A stretch of DNA of 64,000 bases from Rhodoferax sp. TS-BS-61-7. GTDB taxonomy: Bacteria > Pseudomonadota > Gammaproteobacteria > Burkholderiales > Burkholderiaceae_C. Numbering within the stretch: position 1 is the first letter of the stretch; every line of letters begins with the position of its first letter. Below, one piece after another: positions 28,891-51,499 of this stretch. A program made the position numbers and the translations under genes. The notes beneath the pieces were generated by a model. That model made no database searches. It was not told where the DNA came from and worked only from the letters and a program-made list of their open reading frames with translations. The stretch covers positions 62,001-126,000 of the forward strand of contig NZ_PTQY01000006.1 in the NCBI RefSeq assembly GCF_002943465.1, written 5' to 3'.

Positions 28891-29610
28891 TCAGGCGTGC
28901 TGCCGGTTCCGGTCCGCTAGGTCAATCGCCTTGCGGGACAAGCCATCAATTTCGGTGCTGATGCCCGAGAGCACATTGGCCACCACGGCAAACTCGCGGC
29001 CCTGCTGGCCCGCGCGTGCGGCCATCACCTGGGCGTTGAAGCTCACCACTTTGGCTTCGCGGGCGATGGTGTGGATGTCGGAAACGATGCCGGTGAGCTC
29101 CTTGAACAGCAGGTCAGCCTTGGCCTTGGTCACGGCGTCGAACACATTGGTGGCCGCGTTCAGTGCTTCGAGCACGGAGTCGGTGGTGTCCACAATGGCT
29201 TCGAGCACCGGCTGTATACGTGGCGACTGCCGAGCGATGTGGTCCAGCGCGCTGCGCATCAGCTCCATAAAAGCCTGGATCGTGGCGTTCACGCCCTGCG
29301 GGCCTTCGTACACCGCGTGCAGGCGCGCAGCGCTGGGCGTGTCGTAGTGCGACATGGTGCCCAGAAGCCGTGCATGGCTGTCGCAAAACAGCTGGAAGGT
29401 GGTGCGTGCCGCACTGAGCTGGCGTGCATCACCGCCGGCGGCCAGCAGGGTTTGCATGACCATGCGTTGCGACAGCATGCGCTGGCGGGCGGCGAGGTTC
29501 AGGTCGGAAATGGGGGCTGCCACGGCTGTTGTGGTGGGCCGGGTAAGGGGCTGCGTCTGCAGGGCCGTGGGGCGGGGAGAGGGGTTCTGGACTGGGGTAG
29601 GCATGAACAT
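28891..29610 (-). CDS. P-box (PilJ/NarX-like) protein with a short chemoreceptor-like tip
   Basis: 239 residues, no signal peptide or membrane helix. A Pro/Thr-rich start is followed by a P-box-like segment, DLNLAARQRMLSQRM (residues 36-50), of the PilJ/NarX sensor class whose Arg binds nitrate or nitrite in NarX. The C-terminus (residues about 187-225, VSFNAQVMAARAGQQG and EFAVVANVLSGIS) resembles the hairpin tip of methyl-accepting chemotaxis proteins but is far too short for a whole signalling rod. GGAG lies six bases before the ATG. It is the last gene of the nirB operon, 48 bases after cobA. A soluble nitrate-sensing signalling protein is plausible; the partner is unknown. Confidence 0.7.
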   Translation of the reverse strand: MFMPTPVQNPSPRPTALQTQPLTRPTTTAVAAPISDLNLAARQRMLSQRMVMQTLLAAGGDARQLSAARTTFQLFCDSHARLLGTMSHYDTPSAARLHAVYEGPQGVNATIQAFMELMRSALDHIARQSPRIQPVLEAIVDTTDSVLEALNAATNVFDAVTKAKADLLFKELTGIVSDIHTIAREAKVVSFNAQVMAARAGQQGREFAVVANVLSGISTEIDGLSRKAIDLADRNRQHA

Positions 29611-31391: not shown

Positions 31392-34205
31392 TTATGCACC
31401 TGCCGCAGCCGGCGCCATGCTGGCACGCACCATGCGCTGCAACTGGGGCACACACGAGCCGCAATTGGTGCCGCACTTGAGCGTGCTTTGCAGCGTGGCC
31501 AGCCGGTCGGCGGCAAAACCGGTGCATTCGGCCAGCGTGGCGTCGATGGCGGTGTCGGTCACGTTGAAGCAGGTGCACACCGTTTTGCCACGCGACTGCA
31601 CGGGCACGGGGGGTGTGGCACCGGGTGCCAGCAGCGCGCGGCCGTAACTTTGCGCGGGCTGCTCGTCCTGCAGCAGCGTGGTCATCCAGCTCTGCGCGCG
31701 GGTGTCACCGGCCAGCAAAAAACCTTCCAGCGTGGCGTTGGCCGTGCCGCGTTGCAGGCGCACGGCACGGCGCTGGCCGCGTTTTTTGTCGGCGTAACGC
31801 ACCACATCGGCGCCGCCCAGTTGCAGCAGTGCTTCGATCTCCTGCAGCAGCGCATCGGGTGCGGCCTCCATGTCGGCCGCGCGGAACAACACACCACTGC
31901 GGCCATGGTCGTTGGCGGTGGCGTTGCCAAAGGGCACACAACTGGCGTAGGCAAAACGCTCCATCAGCGCCTGCAACTGGCCGCGCACCGCCAGCACGGT
32001 GTCGTCGGGCAGCCAGGCAATGGCCAGCAGGGTCCAGGGCATATCGGCCTTGAGCACCTTGACGGCAGCGTGTTTGAACTCGGGCTGTTTGGAGTCCGGG
32101 CAATAGGCCGAGGTGGTGAGCGCGTTGACACCCGCCAGGCGGGTGCCGGTGGCGCTCACGCCGCTCAAAAACTCTTCACCCCAGTGCATGGCCATGAAGA
32201 CCTGGCTCAGGCCCACCTCGGGGCTGGCCTGCACCGGGACCAGGATGGAGCCACGCTTGCTGGTCACGTGCACCAGGTCGTTCTCGGCGATCAGGCGGCG
32301 CGCCATGTCCTGCGGGTGCATTTGCAACACGGGCTCGCGCACATGGCCAAACAGGCGGCCCAAGGTGCCGGTGCGGCTCATGCCGTGCCACTGGTCTCGC
32401 AGGCGGCCGGTGGTCAACGAAAACGGGTAGCGTGCCTCGCGCGGCTCGGCCACCGCTTTGTAGGCCACGTTGGCAAAACGGGCGCGGCCATCCGGGGTAG
32501 GAAACACGCCGTCTTCGTACAGGCGCACCTTGCCGGTGCTGGCGCCTGCGGGCATGGGCCATTGCAGGGGCGTGGCTTCCAGCTGGGCGTAGTCCATGCC
32601 GGTGATGTCCAGGTCGCGGCCGCGGGTGGATTCGCGGTGTTCGTTCCACACCGACTCGGCCGTGGGGTAGGGGAACAGTGTGGGCTGTGCGGGCGTGCGG
32701 CCCAGGGCGTGCTCCAAGCGCTGGGCAAAGTCGGTGGCAATGGCCCAGTCGTGCCGTGGTGCGGTGTCGGGTGCTCCAGGCGGCACTACGGCGGCGCGCA
32801 CACGAGAGATGCGGCGTTCGCTGTTGGTGACCGTGCCTTCTTTTTCGCCCCAGGTGGTGGCGGGTAGCAGCAGGTCAGCGTAACGCGTGGTGGCGGTGGT
32901 GGCAAAGGCTTCCTGCACCACCACAAACTCGGCGCGCTCCAATGCGCGGCGCACGGTGGCCTGGTCGGGCATGCTTTGCGCGGGGTTGGTGCAGGCAATC
33001 CACAGCGCCTTGATCTCGCCATCGGCGGCGGCCTGGAACATCTCCACGGCGGTTTTGCCAGGCGTCTCGGGCACGCTGGGCACGCCCCACAACGCGGCCA
33101 CTTCGGCGCGGTGGGCGGGGTTGGCCAGGTCGCGGTGGGCGCTCAGCAGGTTGGCCAGGCCGCCCACTTCGCGTCCGCCCATGGCATTGGGCTGGCCGGT
33201 GAGCGAGAACGGGCCGGCGCCGGCTTTGCCAATCTGGCCGGTGGCCAGGTGCAGGTTGATGAGCGCCGTGTTTTTGGCGGTGCCGCTGCTGGACTGGTTC
33301 AGGCCCTGGCAGTACAGGCTCAGCGTGGCCGGGCTCTGGGCAAACAGGCGTGCGGCTTCCAGCAGGTCGGCTTTGCTGATGCCGCAGGTCTGCGCCACCG
33401 CGTCGGGTGTGTAGTCGCGCACCGTGGCTTTGAGGTCGTCAAAACCTGTGGTGTGCGCGGCAATAAAAGCCGGGTTGATCCAGCCTTCCCACAGCATCAG
33501 GTGCAACATGCCGTGGAACAGCATCACGTCGGTGCCGGGCTGGATTTGCAAAAACAGGTCGGCCAGTTCCACCGTGTCGGTGCGGCGCACGTCGGCCACC
33601 ACGATCTTCATGCCGGGGTTTTTGCGCTTGGCGTCTTCGATGCGGCGAAACAGGATGGGGTGGGCGAACGCGGTGTTGGAGCCGACGATAAAAATCGTCT
33701 GCGCGTGGTTCACATCGTCGTAACAGGAGGGCGGGGCGTCGGCGCCCAGTGTCTTCTTGTAGCCGGCCACGGCGCTGCTCATGCACAGGCGCGAGTTGGT
33801 GTCGATGTTGTTGGTGCCAATCAGGCCCTTGGCCAGTTTGTTGAAGACGTAGTAGTCCTCCGTCAGCAGCTGGCCGCTGACATAAAAGCCCACAGCGTCG
33901 GGGCCATGGTCGCGGATGATGCGGGCGAACTGGTCGGTGGCCAGCGACAGCGCGCTGTCCCAGGACAGGGGCTGGGGAGCCGCGCCGCGCTGCAGGCGCT
34001 GCAAGGGCTGGAGCAGGCGGGTTTGCAGCGTGACGGGGGCGCTGGCCGTGTGGTGCAGCGTGGAGCCCTTGGAGCACAGGCGCCCAAAGTTGGCCGGGTG
34101 GTCCGGGTCGCCGCGCACGCCGGTGATCTGCGCACCCTGGGACTCGATGATGACGCCACAGCCCACACCGCAGTAGGGGCAGGTAGAGCGTGTTTCCTTC
34201 TGCAT
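31392..34205 (-). CDS. nasA: Assimilatory nitrate reductase, molybdopterin subunit
   Basis: 937 residues. It reduces nitrate to nitrite in the cytoplasm. The N-terminal [4Fe-4S] motif is complete (C9-x2-C12-x3-C16, C44 in RLCSKG). The bis-MGD domains follow, with NTNSRLCMSSAVAGYKKTLG and SLYCQGLNQSSSGTAKNTALINLHLATG. The C-terminus (residues about 875-925, C877, C879 then C911, C915, C918) is a BFD-type [2Fe-2S] domain, as in NasA enzymes that take electrons from a reductase or ferredoxin. No NasB-type reductase gene is nearby. GGGGAG precedes the ATG by seven bases. Gene order nirB-nirD-nasA-ybiB-cobA, 29 bases after nirD. The name nasA is also used for nitrate transporters in other bacteria. 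Confidence 0.93.
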   Translation of the reverse strand: MQKETRSTCPYCGVGCGVIIESQGAQITGVRGDPDHPANFGRLCSKGSTLHHTASAPVTLQTRLLQPLQRLQRGAAPQPLSWDSALSLATDQFARIIRDHGPDAVGFYVSGQLLTEDYYVFNKLAKGLIGTNNIDTNSRLCMSSAVAGYKKTLGADAPPSCYDDVNHAQTIFIVGSNTAFAHPILFRRIEDAKRKNPGMKIVVADVRRTDTVELADLFLQIQPGTDVMLFHGMLHLMLWEGWINPAFIAAHTTGFDDLKATVRDYTPDAVAQTCGISKADLLEAARLFAQSPATLSLYCQGLNQSSSGTAKNTALINLHLATGQIGKAGAGPFSLTGQPNAMGGREVGGLANLLSAHRDLANPAHRAEVAALWGVPSVPETPGKTAVEMFQAAADGEIKALWIACTNPAQSMPDQATVRRALERAEFVVVQEAFATTATTRYADLLLPATTWGEKEGTVTNSERRISRVRAAVVPPGAPDTAPRHDWAIATDFAQRLEHALGRTPAQPTLFPYPTAESVWNEHRESTRGRDLDITGMDYAQLEATPLQWPMPAGASTGKVRLYEDGVFPTPDGRARFANVAYKAVAEPREARYPFSLTTGRLRDQWHGMSRTGTLGRLFGHVREPVLQMHPQDMARRLIAENDLVHVTSKRGSILVPVQASPEVGLSQVFMAMHWGEEFLSGVSATGTRLAGVNALTTSAYCPDSKQPEFKHAAVKVLKADMPWTLLAIAWLPDDTVLAVRGQLQALMERFAYASCVPFGNATANDHGRSGVLFRAADMEAAPDALLQEIEALLQLGGADVVRYADKKRGQRRAVRLQRGTANATLEGFLLAGDTRAQSWMTTLLQDEQPAQSYGRALLAPGATPPVPVQSRGKTVCTCFNVTDTAIDATLAECTGFAADRLATLQSTLKCGTNCGSCVPQLQRMVRASMAPAAAGA

Positions 34206-34234: not shown

Positions 34235-34618
34235 TCAGACGCTGGCGTTGCGGCGGGCGGGGCCAGCAATGGGGCGCACCAGGTCGGTGGCGTGACCTTG
34301 CAGTTCGGCCGACTTGAGAAACACCTGGCCGCCATCGACTTTGACTTCAAACTTGGGGGTGCAGCCTTCGTCGGGCGCGCTGGCCTGGCCGTCGCACAGG
34401 CCAATCGTCCAGTTGTGCAGCGGGCAAGCCACGCTGGTGCCAAACACAATACCCTGAGAGAGCGGGCCGCCCTTGTGGGGGCAGCGGTCCAGCAACGCAA
34501 ACACTTCGTCCTGCGTGTTGCGGAACACCGCCACATCCAGACCCTGGGTGCGTTCCACACGGCGCGAGCCCAGCACGGGGATGTCTTCCAGCTTGCAGAT
34601 GAGGGTCCATTCGGTCAT
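34235..34618 (-). CDS. nirD: Nitrite reductase small subunit NirD (Rieske-type)
   Basis: 127 residues. It has the Rieske fold with both cluster boxes intact, CPHKGG (C-x-H) and CPLHNW (C-x2-H), so it should bind a [2Fe-2S] cluster; E. coli NirD lacks these ligands. It partners NirB in NADH-dependent reduction of nitrite to ammonium. The C-terminal IAGPARRNASV tail is basic. It is separated from the upstream P-box gene by 78 bases that contain a dispersed repeat, and lies 29 bases before nasA. Confidence 0.93.
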   Translation of the reverse strand: MTEWTLICKLEDIPVLGSRRVERTQGLDVAVFRNTQDEVFALLDRCPHKGGPLSQGIVFGTSVACPLHNWTIGLCDGQASAPDEGCTPKFEVKVDGGQVFLKSAELQGHATDLVRPIAGPARRNASV

Positions 34619-34696: not shown

Positions 34697-35488
34697 TTAC
34701 GTTTTGACGGCCGAATACAGGCCGGTCACCCGGTCCATCACGGTGAGCAGGTTTTCGCTGCTCACAAATACGTCGGCCATGGGTTTGGGGCGCTGGGTGC
34801 CTTCCTGCAGTTGCCGGAGCGCCATGTCAAAAAACACCCACTGCGCATCGGCCAGCAGCAACTCGTCCTTGATACGCAGCGTGGCTTCGGGTGCATTGCG
34901 CAGCAGCTCCATGGCGGCAGTGAATTCGCTGCGTGCCTTGCCAATCTCGGCGCTGGCCACCGCGGCGTCCACCGGCAGCGTGGCGGCCAGGTAAAACTTG
35001 GCCATGCGCTGGGTCAGCATGCGCTGGCGCCCAGCCACGTTGACCAGTTTGCCCACGGGTTTGGCCAAGGCGGCTTCGTATTGCACCGTGCCTTGGTGGG
35101 CCAGGGCCAGCACCTTGGCGTCCAGCTGCAGAAGGGCTGCTGCGCCGTCACGCGCGGGGGCTTTGCCCACCAGCGCGGTTTTGTAGTCGGACCAGGCGGC
35201 GTCCAGCTTGGTGTAGGTGGCCTGCACGTCGGGCGTGGGGGCAAAACCCTTGAGCTCGACCAGCTGGCGGTCAAACAGCGCCATGGATTTGTCCAGCACC
35301 ATTTGGGCGCTGGTTTTTTCCACGTTTTGCAGCAGGGCCAGCCAGGCTTTGCCCATGCGCTGGCTCAGCATGCGCTGGCGCCCGGCCTTGTTGATGGCGT
35401 CGCTCAGGTCCGCCACCTGGGCGCGGGCGGGCAGGGCCAGGCCCACTGCGCCGGCAGCGGCCACAGACATCAGGGTTCTGCGTTGCAT
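34697..35488 (-). CDS. Exported protein with two PilJ/NarX-type P-box domains
   Basis: 263 residues from ATG at 35488. A signal peptide opens it (MQRRTLMSVAAAGAVGLALPARA, cleavage near residue 23). The first domain contains DAINKAGRQRMLSQRM (residues 30-45), strikingly like the NarX P-box, where the corresponding Arg contacts nitrate. The second, VNVAGRQRMLTQRM (149-162), repeats it. Each is followed by long helices, as in four-helix sensor domains. There is no transmitter or membrane anchor after the signal, so it should be a free periplasmic protein, possibly a nitrate/nitrite binding or relay protein. It lies ten bases behind nirB in the same operon. Function is not established. Confidence 0.72.
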   Translation of the reverse strand: MQRRTLMSVAAAGAVGLALPARAQVADLSDAINKAGRQRMLSQRMGKAWLALLQNVEKTSAQMVLDKSMALFDRQLVELKGFAPTPDVQATYTKLDAAWSDYKTALVGKAPARDGAAALLQLDAKVLALAHQGTVQYEAALAKPVGKLVNVAGRQRMLTQRMAKFYLAATLPVDAAVASAEIGKARSEFTAAMELLRNAPEATLRIKDELLLADAQWVFFDMALRQLQEGTQRPKPMADVFVSSENLLTVMDRVTGLYSAVKT

Positions 35489-35498
35489 GGCGTGTGCC

Positions 35499-37937
35499 TC
35501 AGGCTTTGACGGCTTCGAACTGGCGGGTGTCGACCTGCGCGTCCTGGAAGTCAAACCAGGGATCGGGCTCACCGTCCAGCGCGAACAGCAGCTCCTCGTT
35601 CAGGGCCTTGCGGCCTTCGGCATCTTCCAGAATGCGCTTCTTCACATAGTCCAGGCCCACGCGGCTTACATAGTGCACCGTGCGTTCCAGGTACCAGCCT
35701 TCCTTGCGGTAGAGCTGCATGAAAGCGCCGGTGTACTCCAGCACTTCTTCGGTTGTTTTGAGCTTGACGAAGAAGTGCGCCACCTCGGTCTTGATACCAC
35801 CGTTGCCGGCGATGTACATCTCCCAGCCGCTGTCCACGCCAATGATGCCCACGTCCTTGATGCCGGCCTCAGCGCAATTGCGCGGGCAGCCCGACACGGC
35901 GTACTTGACCTTGTGCGGTGCATACATGCGCCAGTGGGCGCGCTCCAGGTCCTTGCCCATCTGGGTGCTGTCCTGCGTGCCCATGCGGCACCACTCGGAG
36001 CCCACGCAGGTCTTCACCGTGCGCAGGGCCTTGGCGTAGGCGTGGCCGCTGGGCATGCCGATGTCCTTCCACACGCTCACCAGGTCTTCCTTCTTCACGC
36101 CCAGCAAGTCGATACGCTGGCCGCCGGTGACCTTGACGGTGGGGATCTTGTACTTGTCCACCGCGTCGGCAATCTTGCGCAGCTCGTTGGCCGTGGTTTC
36201 GCCGCCCCACATGCGTGGGATGACCGAGTAGGTGCCGTCCTTCTGGATGTTGGCGTGGCTGCGTTCGTTGATGAAGCGGCTTTGTGGGTCGTCTTTGGCT
36301 TGTTTGGGCCAGCTGCTGATCAGGTAATAGTTCAGCGCAGGGCGGCAGCTGGAGCAGCCGTTGGGGGTCTTCCAGCCCATGCCCTGTTGTACCGCGGCAA
36401 TGGTGAGGTACTTGTTGGCGAAGATGGCATCGCGCACTTCCTGGTGGCTGTGCTCGGTGCAGCTGCACATGGCCTTCTTCTTGGGGGTGGCGGAGTAGTC
36501 ACCACCGGCGGTGAACATGATGATCTGTTCCACCAGACCGGTGCAGGAGCCACACGATGCGCTGGCCTTGGTGTGCTTCTTCACCTCGTCCAGGGTGAAC
36601 AGGCCTTTTTCCTTGATGGCCTTGCAGATGGTGCCCTTGTTCACGCCGTTGCAACCGCAGACTTCGTCGCTGTCGGCCATGGCGGCGGCCTTGTTCTGGC
36701 CCTGGTGGCCCACGTCACCAATGTTGGAGCCGCTTTCGCCAAACATCAGTTTGTCGCGGATGTCGGCAATGCTGCGGCCGTCGCGCAGCAGCTTGAAGTA
36801 CCAGCTGCCGTCCACGGTGTCGCCGTACATGCAGGCGCCCACCAGTTTGTCGTTTTTGATGACCAGTTTTTTGTAGACGCCGCCAAAGGGGTCGCTCATC
36901 ACAATTTCTTCGGTGCCTTCGCCGCCCTGGAATTCGCCGGCGCTGAACAGGTCGATGCCCGTGACTTTGAGCTTGGTGGAGGTGAGCGAGCCGGTGTAGC
37001 GGCCAATGCCGTACATGGCCAGGTGGTTGGCGGCCACTTTGGCCTGCTCAAACAGCGGGGCGACCAGACCGTAGGCAATGCCGCGGTGGGCGGCGCATTC
37101 ACCCACGCTGTAGATACGGGCGTCGGTCACGGTTTGCATGGTGTCGGTCACCACAATGCCGCGGTCCACATGCAGACGCATGCTGGCGGCCAGTTCGGTG
37201 TTGGGGCGAATGCCCACGGCCATCACCACCAAGTCGGCCGGTACTTCGGTGCCGTCCTTGAACTTGATGGCCTTCACGCGGCCGTCTTCACCACCCACCA
37301 ACTCCTGGGTTTGTGCACCCATCAGGAACTGCAGGCCACGCTCTTCCAGCGACTTGCGCAGCAGGCCACCGGCCACGGTGTCCAGCTGGCGTTCCATCAG
37401 CGTGGGCATCACGTGCACCACACTCACGGTCATGCCACGCAGCATCAGGCCGTTGGCCGCTTCCAGGCCCAGCAGGCCGCCGCCAATGACCACGGCATGT
37501 TTGTACTTGGTGGCCGCGTCGATCATCGCGTTGGTGTCGGCAATGTCGCGGTAGGCGATCACGCCTTGCAGGTCTTTGCCGGGGATGGGCAGGATGAAGG
37601 GGTTGGAGCCGGTGCAGATCAGCAGGCGGTCGTACTCGGCCTCAGTACCGTCGGATGCCTTGACGATGCGTTTGACGCGGTCCACTTCCACCACTTTTTT
37701 GCCGGCGTGCAGCGTGATGTTGTTCTCCGTGTACCACTCAAACGAGTTCAGCACGATCTCGTCCAGCGTCTGCTCGCCGGCCAGCACCGGGCTCAGCAGG
37801 ATGCGGTTGTAGTTGGGGTGGGGTTCGGCGCCAAAGACGGTGATGTCGTACAGGTCCGGGGCCACCTTGAGCAATTCCTCAATGGTGCGCACGCCGGCCA
37901 TGCCGTTGCCAATCATTACCAGTTTCGATTTTTTCAT
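35499..37937 (-). CDS. nirB: NAD(P)H nitrite reductase large subunit NirB
   Basis: 812 residues from ATG at 37937. The N-terminal FAD and NAD Rossmann parts (KLVMIGNGMAGVRTIEELL, VVIGGGLLGLEAANGL, YSVGECAAH) are followed by a BFD [2Fe-2S] region (CGCNGVNKGTICKAI with CGSCTG). The sulfite/nitrite reductase half comes last, with siroheme-[4Fe-4S] cysteines in TCVGSEWCRMGTQDS and GCPRNCAEAG. It reduces nitrite to ammonium with six electrons. It is first in a seven-gene minus-strand operon. The 195-base leader begins at a sigma-54 promoter and contains two ANTAR-type hairpins. Confidence 0.95.
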   Translation of the reverse strand: MKKSKLVMIGNGMAGVRTIEELLKVAPDLYDITVFGAEPHPNYNRILLSPVLAGEQTLDEIVLNSFEWYTENNITLHAGKKVVEVDRVKRIVKASDGTEAEYDRLLICTGSNPFILPIPGKDLQGVIAYRDIADTNAMIDAATKYKHAVVIGGGLLGLEAANGLMLRGMTVSVVHVMPTLMERQLDTVAGGLLRKSLEERGLQFLMGAQTQELVGGEDGRVKAIKFKDGTEVPADLVVMAVGIRPNTELAASMRLHVDRGIVVTDTMQTVTDARIYSVGECAAHRGIAYGLVAPLFEQAKVAANHLAMYGIGRYTGSLTSTKLKVTGIDLFSAGEFQGGEGTEEIVMSDPFGGVYKKLVIKNDKLVGACMYGDTVDGSWYFKLLRDGRSIADIRDKLMFGESGSNIGDVGHQGQNKAAAMADSDEVCGCNGVNKGTICKAIKEKGLFTLDEVKKHTKASASCGSCTGLVEQIIMFTAGGDYSATPKKKAMCSCTEHSHQEVRDAIFANKYLTIAAVQQGMGWKTPNGCSSCRPALNYYLISSWPKQAKDDPQSRFINERSHANIQKDGTYSVIPRMWGGETTANELRKIADAVDKYKIPTVKVTGGQRIDLLGVKKEDLVSVWKDIGMPSGHAYAKALRTVKTCVGSEWCRMGTQDSTQMGKDLERAHWRMYAPHKVKYAVSGCPRNCAEAGIKDVGIIGVDSGWEMYIAGNGGIKTEVAHFFVKLKTTEEVLEYTGAFMQLYRKEGWYLERTVHYVSRVGLDYVKKRILEDAEGRKALNEELLFALDGEPDPWFDFQDAQVDTRQFEAVKA

Positions 37938-38065: not shown

Positions 38066-38131
38066 CTGCGCGACGTCGTTGTGCGCAGAACCTTGCCGGC
38101 TGTCATCTCGTTTGGACGCGTCGTTGCGCCC
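38066..38131 (-). promoter_or_regulatory. nirB: Tandem hexaloop ANTAR-binding hairpins in the nirB leader
   Basis: On the minus strand GGGCGC-AACGAC-GCGTCC (38131-38114) is a six-base-pair stem with a six-base loop. Further on, CTGCGCAC-AACGAC-GTCGCGCAG (38088-38066) is an eight-base-pair stem with one bulged C and the same loop. Both loops have A at position 1 and G at position 4, the recognition feature known for ANTAR antiterminators. The first starts at the predicted transcription start of the sigma-54 promoter. Confidence 0.75.
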
Positions 38132-38142
38132 AGCTCAGCTAA

Positions 38143-38158
38143 TGCAAGAGCTGTGCCA
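38143..38158 (-). promoter_or_regulatory. nirB: Sigma-54 promoter of the nirB operon
   Basis: On the minus strand TGGCACAGCTCTTGCA matches the -24/-12 consensus TGGCACG-N4-TTGCA at all but one position, with GG and GC ten bases apart. The start would be near 38132, about 195 bases before the nirB ATG. Implies RpoN and an enhancer-binding protein such as NtrC. Confidence 0.8.
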
Positions 38159-38268: not shown

Positions 38269-39570
38269 ATGACCTCCGCCCTGCTGTGCTCCTCCCGCCA
38301 AAAAACCGCACCCACGCTGGCCGCCGACCTGGCGGCGGCGGGCATTGCGGTGCTGGCCACGGTGGAGGATTGCAGCAAGTTGGTGCAGGCCTTGGTGCTG
38401 CACGCACCAGATGTGGTGATCTGCGACCTGCCGTTGCCCACGGCGGCCTGGCTCCAGGCGCTGCAGATGGTGGGGCAGACCGTACCCCGCCCGCTGATCG
38501 TTTTCACCCATGACACGGATGCCGCCCATATCCAGCAGGCCACCGACAGCGGGGTGCATGTGTACGTGGTGCACGGCTATGGCGCCAACCGCCTGCGCCC
38601 CCTGATCCACTTGGCGCAGGCCCGGTTTCAGAAAGAGCGGCAGCAGCGCGAGGCCTTTGAGGACATGGCCACCCGGTTTGAGGAGCGTAAGGCCGTAGAC
38701 CGGGCCAAGGGCATCCTGATGCGGGCCCAGAGCCTGTCAGACGATGATGCTTTCCGCACGCTGCGCTCGGCCGCCATGAATTCCAACCAGCGCATGGGCC
38801 AGCTGTCGCAGCACATCATCCAGTCAGCCCACTTTGCCGAGGCGGTTAACCGCTCGGGCCAGTTGCGCATGTTGTCGCAGCGCCTGGTCAAGCTGCACCT
38901 GCTGCAAGCCGCGGGGGTGCAGCCGGTGCACCATGCGGCGCTGCTGAAAGACTCTTTGCAGTGGGTGGATAGCAACTTTGCCCTGTTGCGCAAAAACCTG
39001 TCCCAGCCCACCTATGGCGACCTGTTGGAGCAGGTGGCCCAAACCTGGGAGCTACTCAAGGCCGCCCTGGCCCAGGGCAGCACCGATGTGGTGGAGCAGC
39101 AGGCCGAGGCGCTGCTGCTGGGGGCCGAGCGCCTGACCACCAACCTGGAAAGCTCGGGCGCGGCAGCACCCCTGCATGTGCTGAACTTGGCCGGGCGCCA
39201 GCGCATGTTGTCCCAGCGCTATAGCAAATACGTGCTGCTGTCCCTGGTGGGCGAGGGCGCCGTGGTGGACCTGGCCCAGGCCAGCATGCGCGCCGCCCAG
39301 CGCGAGTTTGAAGACGCGCTCACGTACCTCAACGGCATTCCCCTGAGCACCCCCGACATCCATGGTGCGCTGGGTGCCGCCGGAGTGGCCTGGCTGCAAA
39401 TGGTGGCTGCCGCCCAGGACGCGCAGCGCCTGGCGGGCAGCCCGCGCAGCGCACGCCTGCAAGAGCTGGCCACTGGCAGTGAGACCTTGCTGGGTCTGTT
39501 TGAACAGCTCTCCACCCATTACGAACGCAGCATGCAGATGCTGTTGGGTGAGCCGGAAGACAAGGGTTAA
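38269..39570 (+). CDS. Receiver-ANTAR protein with two C-terminal PilJ/NarX-type sensory domains
   Basis: 433 residues in an unusual order. First is a NasT-like receiver domain (1-118; D53 in VICDLP). Next is a coiled ANTAR RNA-binding domain (about 126-187: FEERKAVDRAKGILM, SLSDDDAFRTLRSAAM). Two P-box sensory domains complete it: FAEAVNRSGQLRMLSQRL (189-206) and VLNLAGRQRMLSQRY (304-318), each with following helices. No membrane segment, so nitrate or nitrite would be sensed in the cytoplasm and passed directly to the RNA-binding part, as NasR does with an unrelated NIT domain. It is divergent from nirB, whose leader has two ANTAR-type hairpins. No clear ribosome binding site is seen before the ATG. 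The function is inferred. Confidence 0.82.
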   Translation: MTSALLCSSRQKTAPTLAADLAAAGIAVLATVEDCSKLVQALVLHAPDVVICDLPLPTAAWLQALQMVGQTVPRPLIVFTHDTDAAHIQQATDSGVHVYVVHGYGANRLRPLIHLAQARFQKERQQREAFEDMATRFEERKAVDRAKGILMRAQSLSDDDAFRTLRSAAMNSNQRMGQLSQHIIQSAHFAEAVNRSGQLRMLSQRLVKLHLLQAAGVQPVHHAALLKDSLQWVDSNFALLRKNLSQPTYGDLLEQVAQTWELLKAALAQGSTDVVEQQAEALLLGAERLTTNLESSGAAAPLHVLNLAGRQRMLSQRYSKYVLLSLVGEGAVVDLAQASMRAAQREFEDALTYLNGIPLSTPDIHGALGAAGVAWLQMVAAAQDAQRLAGSPRSARLQELATGSETLLGLFEQLSTHYERSMQMLLGEPEDKG

Positions 39571-39629: not shown

Positions 39630-41390
39630 ATGGCATTTGATATTGATATTGGTTTTGCTTCGCAAGCCGGGCGCAAGGCGCTGAACGAAGACTTTTGTGC
39701 GGCCATGTTGCCCACCCCAGGGCAAGAGGACCACGGCTCTATCGTGGCCATTGCCGATGGCGTGAGTGCCGGTGGCATGGGGCGCGAGGCGGCGCAGACC
39801 ACGGTCACCAGTTTGGTGCGCGATTACTTTGGCACGCCCGAAACCTGGGACACCACGGTGGCGCTGGACCGCATCATTGCCGCGCAAAACGCCTGGTTGT
39901 GTGGCATCAACCGGCGCCGCCAGCCCGCCATGGGTCTGACCACACTCACCGCGCTGGTGCTGCGCGGCCAGTCTTACACGCTGGCCCATGTGGGCGACAC
40001 CCGCTGTTACCTGGTGCGCGACGGTAAGGCCACCCAGCTCACGCAAGACCATGTGGTCAACCACCCCGATTTCAAGCACCAACTGCTGCGTTCTGTGGGC
40101 GCCGAAGACCGCTTGGTGGTGGACTACCTGCAAGGCGACCTGCAGGTGGGCGATGTGTTTATCTTGATGACGGACGGTGTGCACGGTGAGGTGTCTGCCC
40201 GGCGCCTGCCCGAGGTGGCCGCCATGCCGGACGCGCGCGAGGCCAGCGAAAAACTGGTGGACCAGGCCCTGACCAAGGGCAGCAACGACAACGTGTCTGC
40301 CATCGTGGTGCGTGTGCGCGGCTTGCAGGAGGCCACGCTGGCTGATGCCAACCGCATGGCCCAGGCCCTGCCGATTCCCCCGCGCCTGAAGGTGGCCGAT
40401 GTGCTGGACGGCTTCACTGTGACGGCGCCCATTGCCGACAACGGCATCAATGTGCTGTACCAGATTCGTGACCCCGCGACCCAGACCTTGTACGCCCTCA
40501 AAACGCTGAACACGGCCCGCGCCCATGACCAGGAAGAACGCGCCATGTTGGCCCACGAGGCCTGGCTGGCGCAGCGCATGCAAAGCTCACGCGCGGCCGA
40601 CAACCTGGTGGCGGTGCACGACACGCTGCCCACGGGCCGCGAGCGCTCGGCGTTTTATGTGTTGTACGACTGGCATGGTGGCGAAACACTGCAGCAGCTG
40701 CTGGACAAACAGACGCGTGTGGCGCCGGCCGTGGCACTGGGGTATGCCATGCAGGCCCTGCGCGCGCTGGGCCGCCTGCACCGCCAGGGTGTGGTGCACC
40801 GCGACATCAAACCCGCCAACCTGCACCTGGGCGACGACGGTGTGTTGCGTGTGCTGGACCTGGGCGTGGCCCTGAGCGGGCGCGAGCCCGCCGCCATGCG
40901 TGCGTTACACGCCGGCACGCCCAGCTACGTGAACCCAGAGCAGTGGGGCTTTCGCACCAAGGCGGCCAATGGCAAGGGCGAGGCGGAGGAGGGCGAGGCC
41001 CAACTGCCCAACGCGCAGAGCGACCTGTTTGCACTGGGCGTGACGCTGTACCAGCTGCTCACCGGCAAGCTGCCGTATGGCGAGGTGCTGCCCTACCAGG
41101 TGGGCCGCTACTACCGCGACCCCACCGCCCCCAGCCGCCACAACCCCGAGGTGCCGATCTGGCTGGACCACGTGTTGCAAAAAGCCGTGGCGCGCGACCA
41201 GCGCCAGCGCTTTGAGACCGCCGAAGAGTTTTTGCTGGCACTGGAGCGCGGTGCTTCACGCCCGCTCAACGCTCCCCAGGGCACGCCGCTGATGCAGCGT
41301 GACCCCAGCTTCGTCTGGAAGCTGGCCACTTTCGTGTTGGGGCTGGTCAATCTCTTGCTGGTGTACTGGCTGCTCTTCCTGCCCAAGTAG
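39630..41390 (+). CDS. PP2C phosphatase - serine/threonine kinase fusion with C-terminal membrane helix
   Basis: 586 residues from ATG at 39630, 59 bases after the ANTAR gene. The N-terminal PPM phosphatase (1-235) has KALNED, ADGVSAGGMG, AHVGDTRCYL, MTDGVHGE and SNDNVSAIV, all metal-site motifs. A Hanks-type kinase (about 258-545) has K291 in YALKTL, the catalytic HRDIKPAN (390-397) and DLG (410-412) in place of DFG. It ends in one membrane helix (FVLGLVNLLLVYWLLFLPK). The same fusion sits between the nitrate transporter and nirB genes in Pseudomonas, which supports a role in control of nitrate assimilation. Targets are unknown. Confidence 0.87.
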   Translation: MAFDIDIGFASQAGRKALNEDFCAAMLPTPGQEDHGSIVAIADGVSAGGMGREAAQTTVTSLVRDYFGTPETWDTTVALDRIIAAQNAWLCGINRRRQPAMGLTTLTALVLRGQSYTLAHVGDTRCYLVRDGKATQLTQDHVVNHPDFKHQLLRSVGAEDRLVVDYLQGDLQVGDVFILMTDGVHGEVSARRLPEVAAMPDAREASEKLVDQALTKGSNDNVSAIVVRVRGLQEATLADANRMAQALPIPPRLKVADVLDGFTVTAPIADNGINVLYQIRDPATQTLYALKTLNTARAHDQEERAMLAHEAWLAQRMQSSRAADNLVAVHDTLPTGRERSAFYVLYDWHGGETLQQLLDKQTRVAPAVALGYAMQALRALGRLHRQGVVHRDIKPANLHLGDDGVLRVLDLGVALSGREPAAMRALHAGTPSYVNPEQWGFRTKAANGKGEAEEGEAQLPNAQSDLFALGVTLYQLLTGKLPYGEVLPYQVGRYYRDPTAPSRHNPEVPIWLDHVLQKAVARDQRQRFETAEEFLLALERGASRPLNAPQGTPLMQRDPSFVWKLATFVLGLVNLLLVYWLLFLPK

Positions 41391-49953: not shown

Positions 49954-49992
49954 GGCACAAGCTCCAAAAGTGAAAAACACAAAACGAAAAAC

Positions 49993-50055
49993 AAAAAAGG
50001 CGTCCGCACTGGGTTCGCTGCGCGGTGCGCAAGTGAACCCGTGGGGACGCCTTTG
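49993..50055 (-). terminator. nrtA: Intrinsic terminator in the nrtA leader (attenuator)
   Basis: On the minus strand AAAGGCGTCC, an inner stem GGGTTC/GAACCC, and GGACGCCTTTTTT form a long branched hairpin with a T run, ending about 40 bases before the nrtA ATG. It lies after the sigma-54 start, so unrelieved it would stop transcription before nrtABC. Confidence 0.88.
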
Positions 50056-50071
50056 TCCTGTTGCATGGAAC

Positions 50072-50117
50072 CCACCCGCCGTTAGGTGGAGCCCGGTGCA
50101 TGACCGTTGCCGGTCTC
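50072..50117 (-). promoter_or_regulatory. nrtA: ANTAR-type hexaloop hairpin region in the nrtA leader
   Basis: On the minus strand CCACCT-AACGGC-GGGTGG (50089-50072) is a six-base-pair stem with a six-base loop, A at position 1 and G at position 4. Just upstream, at the predicted transcription start, 50117-50089 can fold (GAG, CCGG, inner loop with AACGGT, CCGG, CTC) but less cleanly. An alternative GACCG-GCAA-CGGTC hairpin competes, so the first of the expected pair is uncertain. Confidence 0.65.
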
Positions 50118-50128
50118 GCAGGGATTAA

Positions 50129-50144
50129 CGCAATGTCTGTGCCA
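50129..50144 (-). promoter_or_regulatory. nrtA: Sigma-54 promoter of nrtABC
   Basis: On the minus strand TGGCACAGACATTGCG matches TGGCACG-N4-TTGCA with GG-N10-GC spacing and two mismatches. The predicted start near 50118 falls exactly at the first leader hairpin. Confidence 0.78.
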
Positions 50145-50851: not shown

Positions 50852-51499
50852 TCAGGACAACAGGTCGGCCACATCCAGCATGCGCTGGGCCACTTCCACA
50901 ATTTTGAGGTTTTTGTCCATGGCCGTTTTGCGCAACTTGGCGTAGGCGGCTTCTTCGCTGAGCTGCTGGCGCTGCATCAGCAGGGCCTTGGCGCGGTCAA
51001 TTACCTTGCGGTCTTGCAGGGCGGCTGAGAGTTCGTGCAGTTCGCTGCGGGTGTTGGCCAGCTCCTGGCGCAAGGCCTGCTCATGCTGGAAGCGGGCCAT
51101 GGCCACATCCAGAATCGGGCGGATGCGCTCGGCCTGCAGGCCTGCCACGATGTAGGCTGACACACCAGCCGCCACCGCGGCACGCGCGTTGCCACTGTCG
51201 TTGTCGTTGGTGAACATCACGATGGGGCGGCGTTCGTCGCGCGTGGCCATCACGACATGTTCCAGCGCGTCACGCGCGTCGCTTTCGGCGTCCACAATGA
51301 TCATGTCCGGCTGCAACTGGGCCAGGCGCTCGGTCAGGTAGACATCGGCGGGCAGCGAGGCCACCAGATTGAAACCGTTTTCCAGCAGCCCGATGCGCAG
51401 GCTGCGCGAGCGTTCGGCCTGGTCCAGCGCGTGGGTGTCCTGCGGGTCGTCGACCTGCAAGTCTGAGTTGATCACGACGATGCGAAGCGGCTCGGTCAT
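50852..51499 (-). CDS. nasT: NasT-type nitrate-responsive ANTAR antiterminator
   Basis: 215 residues from ATG at 51499. The receiver-like domain (1-125, D70 in MIIVDAESD, and RRPIVMFTNDNDSGNARAAVAAGVSAYIVAGL) is of the AmiR/NasT kind. A coiled coil and ANTAR domain follow (about 150-213: LQDRKVIDRAKALLMQRQQLSEEAAYAKLRKTAMDKN). NasT binds leader RNA and prevents termination of nitrate genes; its usual inhibitor NasS is not next to it or elsewhere in the window. The nrtA leader just downstream is the obvious target. Confidence 0.9.
   Translation of the reverse strand: MTEPLRIVVINSDLQVDDPQDTHALDQAERSRSLRIGLLENGFNLVASLPADVYLTERLAQLQPDMIIVDAESDARDALEHVVMATRDERRPIVMFTNDNDSGNARAAVAAGVSAYIVAGLQAERIRPILDVAMARFQHEQALRQELANTRSELHELSAALQDRKVIDRAKALLMQRQQLSEEAAYAKLRKTAMDKNLKIVEVAQRMLDVADLLS

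Follow-up and report, generated by a model that had tools for sequence, protein, structure and literature searches.

Within the window analysed here, a stretch of 64,000 nucleotides from Rhodoferax sp. TS-BS-61-7 (contig NZ_PTQY01000006.1, positions 62,001 to 126,000 of the forward strand), a gene divergent from nirB encodes a protein that combines a receiver-like domain, an ANTAR domain and two PilJ domains in a single chain, and which we consider a candidate cytosolic regulator of nitrate assimilation. The gene of this fusion protein and its domains are as follows.

38269..39570, plus strand: fusion gene, 433 amino acids, a single open frame from ATG to stop
38269..38628, plus strand: N-terminal predicted pseudo-receiver, residues 1-120 (29.1 bits in Pfam against a cut-off of 30.2)
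38662..38820, plus strand: ANTAR domain (Pfam), residues 132-184
38824..39156, plus strand: PilJ repeat 1, residues 186-296, with a P-box at residues 194-205 (38848-38883)
39157..39549, plus strand: PilJ repeat 2, residues 297-427, with a P-box at residues 306-317 (39184-39219)

The domain search proposed in a preliminary description of this DNA, which had already joined a receiver, an ANTAR domain and two P-box segments in one frame, bears out that layout: Pfam places ANTAR (PF03861) at residues 132-184 (E 4.6e-17, 62.0 bits, cut-off 27.3) and PilJ (PF13675) in two stretches, the best at residues 185-279 (E 2.4e-17, 63.5 bits, cut-off 26.6), both above their cut-offs. The Response_reg match at residues 21-110 (E 1.2e-6) falls slightly below its cut-off, and NCBIfam gave, among the 25 of 26 matches listed, solely receiver-type matches far below cut-offs. 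The top sequence matches in the PDB to residues 17-185 are the receiver-ANTAR proteins Rv1626 and EutV, and the match to NasR covers the ANTAR part only. The frame is not a chance one because 67 distinct orthologues could be aligned (83 were extracted, and 15 short duplicates of longer loci and one identical copy were removed) and because the two PilJ halves align with each other; overlapping frames on the reverse strand reach at most 194 amino acids, frame 1 having three stops.

The sensor half carries two intact P-boxes, N194-R205 (NRSGQLRMLSQR) and N306-R317 (NLAGRQRMLSQR), which, like those of NarX, NarQ and McpN, show N, G-x-x-R, M, S and R. The P-box arginines R200 and R312 are Arg in all 67 orthologues, and both G-x-x-R motifs are kept in 62-67 of the 67. 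Repeats 1 and 2 align with each other in hhalign (96.7%, 106 columns), and with a 13-sequence profile McpN (6gcv) matches repeat 2 at E 1.5e-6. A structure model of the tandem PilJ region (pLDDT 90) predicts two four-helix bundles; the NasR sensor (4akk) tops the structure list and is, among the structures listed, the only one that appears to fit both bundles well, each single bundle matching McpN or NarQ structures (NarX itself is absent from the structure rows listed, which excludes nothing). The NIT domain (PF08376) of NasR-like proteins was not listed for the fusion protein in Pfam at E up to 1, the same check giving 200 bits to NIT for a NIT-ANTAR relative, and homology between tandem PilJ and NIT was not found by sequence at the sensitivity used (0.1% in a profile comparison with 12 NIT domains). 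We favour the reading in which both PilJ domains together make up a single NIT-like pseudo-dimer. No membrane segment was seen in the sensor half, as judged from hydropathy only (the top 19-residue value is 1.39 in the window protein and at most 1.83 across the 67, against 2.66 in the narK-like protein).

The ANTAR domain lies in the middle of the chain (132-184 of 433), not at the C terminus. In NasR, R340 and R366 are reported to lie on a surface used either for RNA binding or for pairing with the NIT domain (PMC7496416). In the PDB sequence alignment, with the numbering anchored on NasR W362 as the counterpart of F162, these residues correspond to R140 and R166 of the fusion protein, which are Arg in 67 of 67 orthologues at both positions; position 162 itself is F in 64 and Y in 3. 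The N-terminal domain fared differently. The preliminary description had called it a NasT-like receiver with D53, and D53 is present in the window protein, but it is not a feature of the family, alignment position 53 being D in 11, W in 22 and E in 9 of the 67 orthologues. Working receivers carry Lys at the position matching H102 of the window protein; the commonest residue there among the 67 is N, and Lys was not seen. Six of the 67 orthologues match the query only from residue 60 or later, so that a receiver is barely recognisable in them. Judged from the alignment, the receiver is degenerate across the fusion family, that is, a pseudo-receiver. Phosphorylation was rejected as the family's switch, for which it appears unlikely even though the window protein has D53, since this residue is kept in 11 of 67 only and the expected Lys is missing from view.

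The leader of the divergent nirB gene contains three features that bear on the presumed target of the ANTAR domain.

38142..38158, minus strand: sigma54-type promoter-like site of nirB, TGGCAC-N5-TTGCAT
38113..38132, minus strand: hairpin P1, hexaloop AACGAC
38066..38088, minus strand: hairpin P2, hexaloop AACGAC, with a single bulged base

The first was assigned by what we take to be the sigma54 consensus. As described in PMC3369931, ANTAR targets consist of two small hairpins whose hexaloops have A1 and G4; some of the orthologous leaders have G at loop position 1. In an alignment of 29 leaders, 89.6% of the cells are paired and 9 of the 15 pairs changed on both sides. The covariation score was reached by 0 of 500 shuffles and the measure of further pair types by 13 of 500 (figures that are not probabilities, the aligned leaders being related sequences), and sliding the hairpin partners reduces every covariation measure. 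At 51 of the 67 fusion loci a promoter-like site precedes a hexaloop hairpin; across 20 dinucleotide shuffles the count was never above 2 of 67 (range 0-2). The pattern used was composed after the loci had been viewed and permits a purine, A or G, as the first loop base, and among the 16 loci that it missed are some, such as L100 and L075, that by eye show a variant. An initial scan for paired hairpins, which allowed a linker of at most 25 and no bulge, did not pick up the window's nirB leader and gave 53 matches over all loci against about 56 expected (one mononucleotide shuffle, one strand, doubled). Such a scan therefore has no force of its own, and the proof comes from position and conservation. 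At gathering scores, Rfam reported only a tRNA in the window.

The two-hexaloop leader motif (hereafter motif B) was also searched with a covariance model, R1, which gave a single strong match in the genome of the window (E 1.2e-11; the next is 0.6). In a survey of 299 genomes, with filters that lose weak matches, 36 had a match at E <= 1e-3, namely 28 of the 55 with the fusion and 8 of the 244 without it. All but one of the 28 matches in fusion genomes adjoin the fusion gene by position, that of G254 lying at nirB elsewhere (L128). With the 17 genomes from which the model had been built left out, the counts are 11 of 38 with the fusion against 8 of 244 without (Fisher p 2e-6, uncorrected for ancestry).

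The fusion recurs across the taxonomic family to which the genome of the window belongs. At least 55 of 299 genomes of that family have a match spanning from before residue 130 to residue 426 or beyond, and carriers identified by name include Curvibacter, Rhodoferax, Polaromonas and Hydrogenophaga (13 loci). Surveys were also made of the order (200 genomes) and of the class (274 genomes), with few candidates scored per genome; among the matches listed, the fusion type was found only in the genome of the window and in G049, which belongs to the same family, and in other genomes the listed matches to receiver-ANTAR and to tandem PilJ were separate. One candidate from outside the family (G112, order survey) turned out to be a stand-alone tandem-PilJ protein. 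An unrooted receiver-ANTAR tree of 35 sequences was built from 16 of 47 fusions, from every NasT-type row of the family found in these loci (7, the window's own included) and from 12 further rows; in it a single branch (100/100) parts the fusions from the 19 NasT-type rows. An earlier unrooted tree, which held no NasT of the same family, likewise set 22 fusions apart from 26 rows from other families of the order by a single branch (99/98). The tandem PilJ tree (39 rows, unrooted) separates the fusions from stand-alone tandem-PilJ proteins except for row L096, which was labelled a non-fusion since no receiver was found and yet was extracted among the fusions. The single branches of these unrooted trees point to one old fusion event. 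The preliminary description knew of no named family with this layout, and we found no ANTAR-PilJ fusion described in the literature searched, subscription papers being mostly beyond that search; the layout itself is conserved in the 67 orthologues.

The genes around the fusion gene include some of nitrate assimilation.

35499..37937, minus strand: nirB, divergent from the fusion gene and its presumed target
34235..34618, minus strand: nirD-like gene, co-directional with nirB; the name comes from an annotated relative of the same gene order and is in part our presumption
31392..34205, minus strand: nasA-like molybdopterin nitrate reductase
34697-35488, minus strand: tandem PilJ protein with two P-boxes, within the nirB operon (Pfam PilJ, 83 bits)
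28891-29610, minus strand: small protein with one PilJ-like P-box (25.9 bits, cut-off 26.6) and a piece of a methyl-accepting chemotaxis protein signalling domain
39630..41390, plus strand: PP2C phosphatase/Ser-Thr kinase fusion protein, adjoining the fusion gene and a frequent neighbour

The neighbourhood survey that had been proposed at the outset found that the nearest recognised 5' gene is divergent in 64 of 66 loci (narK-like in 39, nirB in 24, nirD in one), with a median gap of 322 bases; it covered homologues of 15 window genes only, and an intervening gene outside this set is possible. At the two exceptions, L038 and L108 (241 bases of flank), none of the reference genes was recognised. 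On the plasmid CP099607.1 the order is nasA-like, nirD, nirB, phosphatase-kinase, MFS and then a gene of 449 amino acids with a tblastn match to residues 136-426 of the fusion protein. This fusion relative (L164, 7512-8861, plus strand) is publicly annotated after type IV pili only, as 'type IV pili methyl-accepting chemotaxis transducer N-terminal domain-containing protein'. The protein encoded at 34697-35488 has by eye a signal-peptide-like start and falls in a clade separate from the sensor of the fusion, and that encoded at 28891-29610 is the third P-box protein within one nitrate cluster.

A second candidate circuit lies further along the window.

50852..51499, minus strand: NasT-like receiver-ANTAR protein, the only other ANTAR protein of the genome
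50336-50797, minus strand: frame of 153 amino acids separating nasT from the nrtA leader; Pfam gave nothing at E <= 0.01
49980..50144, minus strand: nrtA leader, with a sigma54-type site (50130-50144) and hairpins at 50071-50090 and 50045-50058
50045-50054 and 49996-50005, minus strand: arms of the nrtA leader terminator, plus a T-run

The hairpin loops of this leader are AACGGC and AAAGGC, and in the terminator (AAAGGCGTCC with GGACGCCTTT, followed by the T-run) the second hairpin contributes its loop and its 3' arm as the 5' arm. Among 14 nrtA leaders examined, the hairpin is present in 13 and the terminator in 12; the attenuator has no Rfam match at the gathering score. The preliminary description had also named the nrtA leader as a possible target of the fusion protein, but by its sequence this leader has a textbook ANTAR attenuator of its own, with hairpins and terminator, close to NasT. 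No NasS paralogue was seen in the genome of the window, in which the single NrtA-like protein at E <= 0.001 is that of the transporter, and NasT therefore seems to be without its known partner. Many genomes of the family also have NIT-ANTAR genes of the NasR-like type (loci L131 and L142-L153 among others), some fusion genomes such as G049 having both kinds, and at L131 (11587-12888, minus strand) such a gene lies upstream of nrtA.

We propose, with a probability of roughly 0.7, that the fusion protein regulates nitrate assimilation as a one-component system in the cytosol, in which the tandem PilJ region senses nitrate or nitrite and the ANTAR domain grips the nirB leader. This reading builds on the architecture, its conservation, the predicted fold, the promoter-like site, the covarying hairpins and the adjacency of gene and leader. 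Nitrate or nitrite would be bound between the P-box arginines R200 and R312 of the two linked PilJ bundles, in a mode like that of the subunits of the NarQ or McpN dimers or, within one chain, of the NasR NIT domain. Binding may free or rearrange the central ANTAR domain, which would then hold on to both hairpins with the hexaloop AACGAC, situated at the 5' end of the leader that sigma54 is presumed to transcribe before nirB (elsewhere before narK), and expression of the nirB-nirD-nasA operon would go up, control being presumably positive. The pseudo-receiver would probably serve as a dimerisation or docking platform.

Several observations weigh against an exclusive pairing of the fusion protein with this leader, or against antitermination as its mode of action. 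In seven of the eight fusion-less genomes with an R1 match, the match lies directly upstream of nirB (that in G342 has no recognised neighbour), and motif B is thus, judged from its distribution, a general nirB/narK ANTAR-type element that is enriched alongside the fusion, not its private site. Control of the divergent nirB operon, as originally suggested, accordingly keeps the support of the adjacency, the conserved two-hexaloop motif and the sigma54-type site but loses exclusivity. The window's NasT lies near the nrtA attenuator, and no intrinsic terminator overlapping P2 was found at the window's nirB, so that of the term antiterminator the ANTAR-type hairpins at nirB stand and the antitermination itself is unproven.

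The nearest rival keeps all of these parts and assigns RNA binding to NasT, which would read both leaders, the fusion protein acting as a modulator that holds or releases NasT through mixed dimers, a built-in replacement of NasS. The seven fusion-less genomes that keep motif B before nirB do have NasT-type or NIT-ANTAR proteins, the seemingly partnerless NasT would gain a partner, and a degenerate receiver fits a docking role. Yet the RNA-contact positions R140 and R166 of the fusion protein are invariant (67 of 67), and it is the fusion gene that adjoins motif B, the window's nasT being separated by one frame from nrtA with its attenuator; we regard this scheme as improbable, and binding of the nirB leader by the fusion protein rather than by NasT as the better assignment. 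Slightly less probable again is that the tandem PilJ senses another ligand, for example another oxyanion, or merely dimerises the protein, given that both G-x-x-R motifs are conserved and that 64 of 66 loci are linked to genes of nitrate assimilation. A considerably stronger contender, if one short of even odds, concerns the last step only and can be combined with the proposed sensing and binding: the fusion protein may control translation or Rho-dependent termination of nirB/narK instead of an intrinsic terminator. With the same pattern, a terminator-like site was found in 12 of the 14 nrtA leaders and in 4 of the 67 fusion-side leaders (the window's included, there downstream of P2), and actinobacterial ANTAR RNAs are reported to act on translation (PMC8164766). 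A TGTGCC or GTGCCTC element occurs downstream of the hairpins in 20 of the 67 fusion-side leaders (chance expectation not computed) and could pair with the Shine-Dalgarno sequence; it is carried by L065, L071, L103, L043, L049 and others, and by eye follows P2 directly in several narK-type leaders. On the other hand, with a looser short-loop pattern, 9 of the 36 motif B leaders examined show a terminator-like site (7 of 29 on the fusion side, 2 of 7 others, none in the window's), and GC-rich terminators with few T can escape detection.

The relation of the fusion protein to the known systems can be outlined from these data. With NasR of Klebsiella oxytoca it shares a sensor and an ANTAR domain in a single chain, a sensor of predicted two four-helix bundles, the conserved R340/R366 positions and, going by published reports, a two-hairpin leader (PMC3369931) and Ntr-dependent expression (PMC5424462). 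It differs from NasR in having no NIT domain by sequence, a central ANTAR domain, a C-terminal sensor and an added N-terminal pseudo-receiver, and in that no intrinsic terminator overlapping P2 was found in its presumed leader. Its first 190 residues are receiver-ANTAR, as in NasT (Paracoccus, Azotobacter and others), with about 30-40% identity to NasT-type matches; unlike NasT, which works with NasS, it has a sensor of its own, and it forms a separate branch. PilJ/P-box sensor domains such as those of NarX, NarQ and McpN are periplasmic, lie between membrane helices and feed a kinase or chemotaxis module, whereas the fusion protein has two PilJ copies per chain, no membrane segment that could be seen and an RNA-binding output. 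EutV and Rv1626 provide its best PDB matches over residues 17-185, but EutV is driven by phosphorylation (PMC3369931), the acceptor for which is not kept in the fusion family. The preliminary description had presented the protein as a third solution next to NasR and NasT; it does have its own NarX-type sensor, distinct from NIT-ANTAR proteins and NasT, but is probably closer to NasR in its working than that phrase suggests because the tandem PilJ is best read as a NIT-like pseudo-dimer. Opinion can be evenly divided on the wider reading that it represents a third nitrate-responsive ANTAR class, a cytosolic NarX-type pseudo-dimer with a dead receiver and an ANTAR domain that converged on the two-bundle sensor of NasR. 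This class would have a separate class of leader (a sigma54 promoter, a hairpin near the 5' end, a spacer of about 24 nucleotides, a second hairpin and no intrinsic terminator), and one cluster would hold two circuits with different last steps.

The literature searched describes PilJ/NarX-type nitrate sensing for receptors in the membrane. If the proposed reading is true, a soluble version in one chain would be more convenient for structural and binding studies and would show both halves of the site in cis. With two leader classes in one cluster, the choice of RNA targets by ANTAR proteins could be tested cleanly, as could the question whether they can act without an intrinsic terminator, and the fusion protein would provide a candidate nitrate regulator for dozens of the sampled Burkholderiales genomes.
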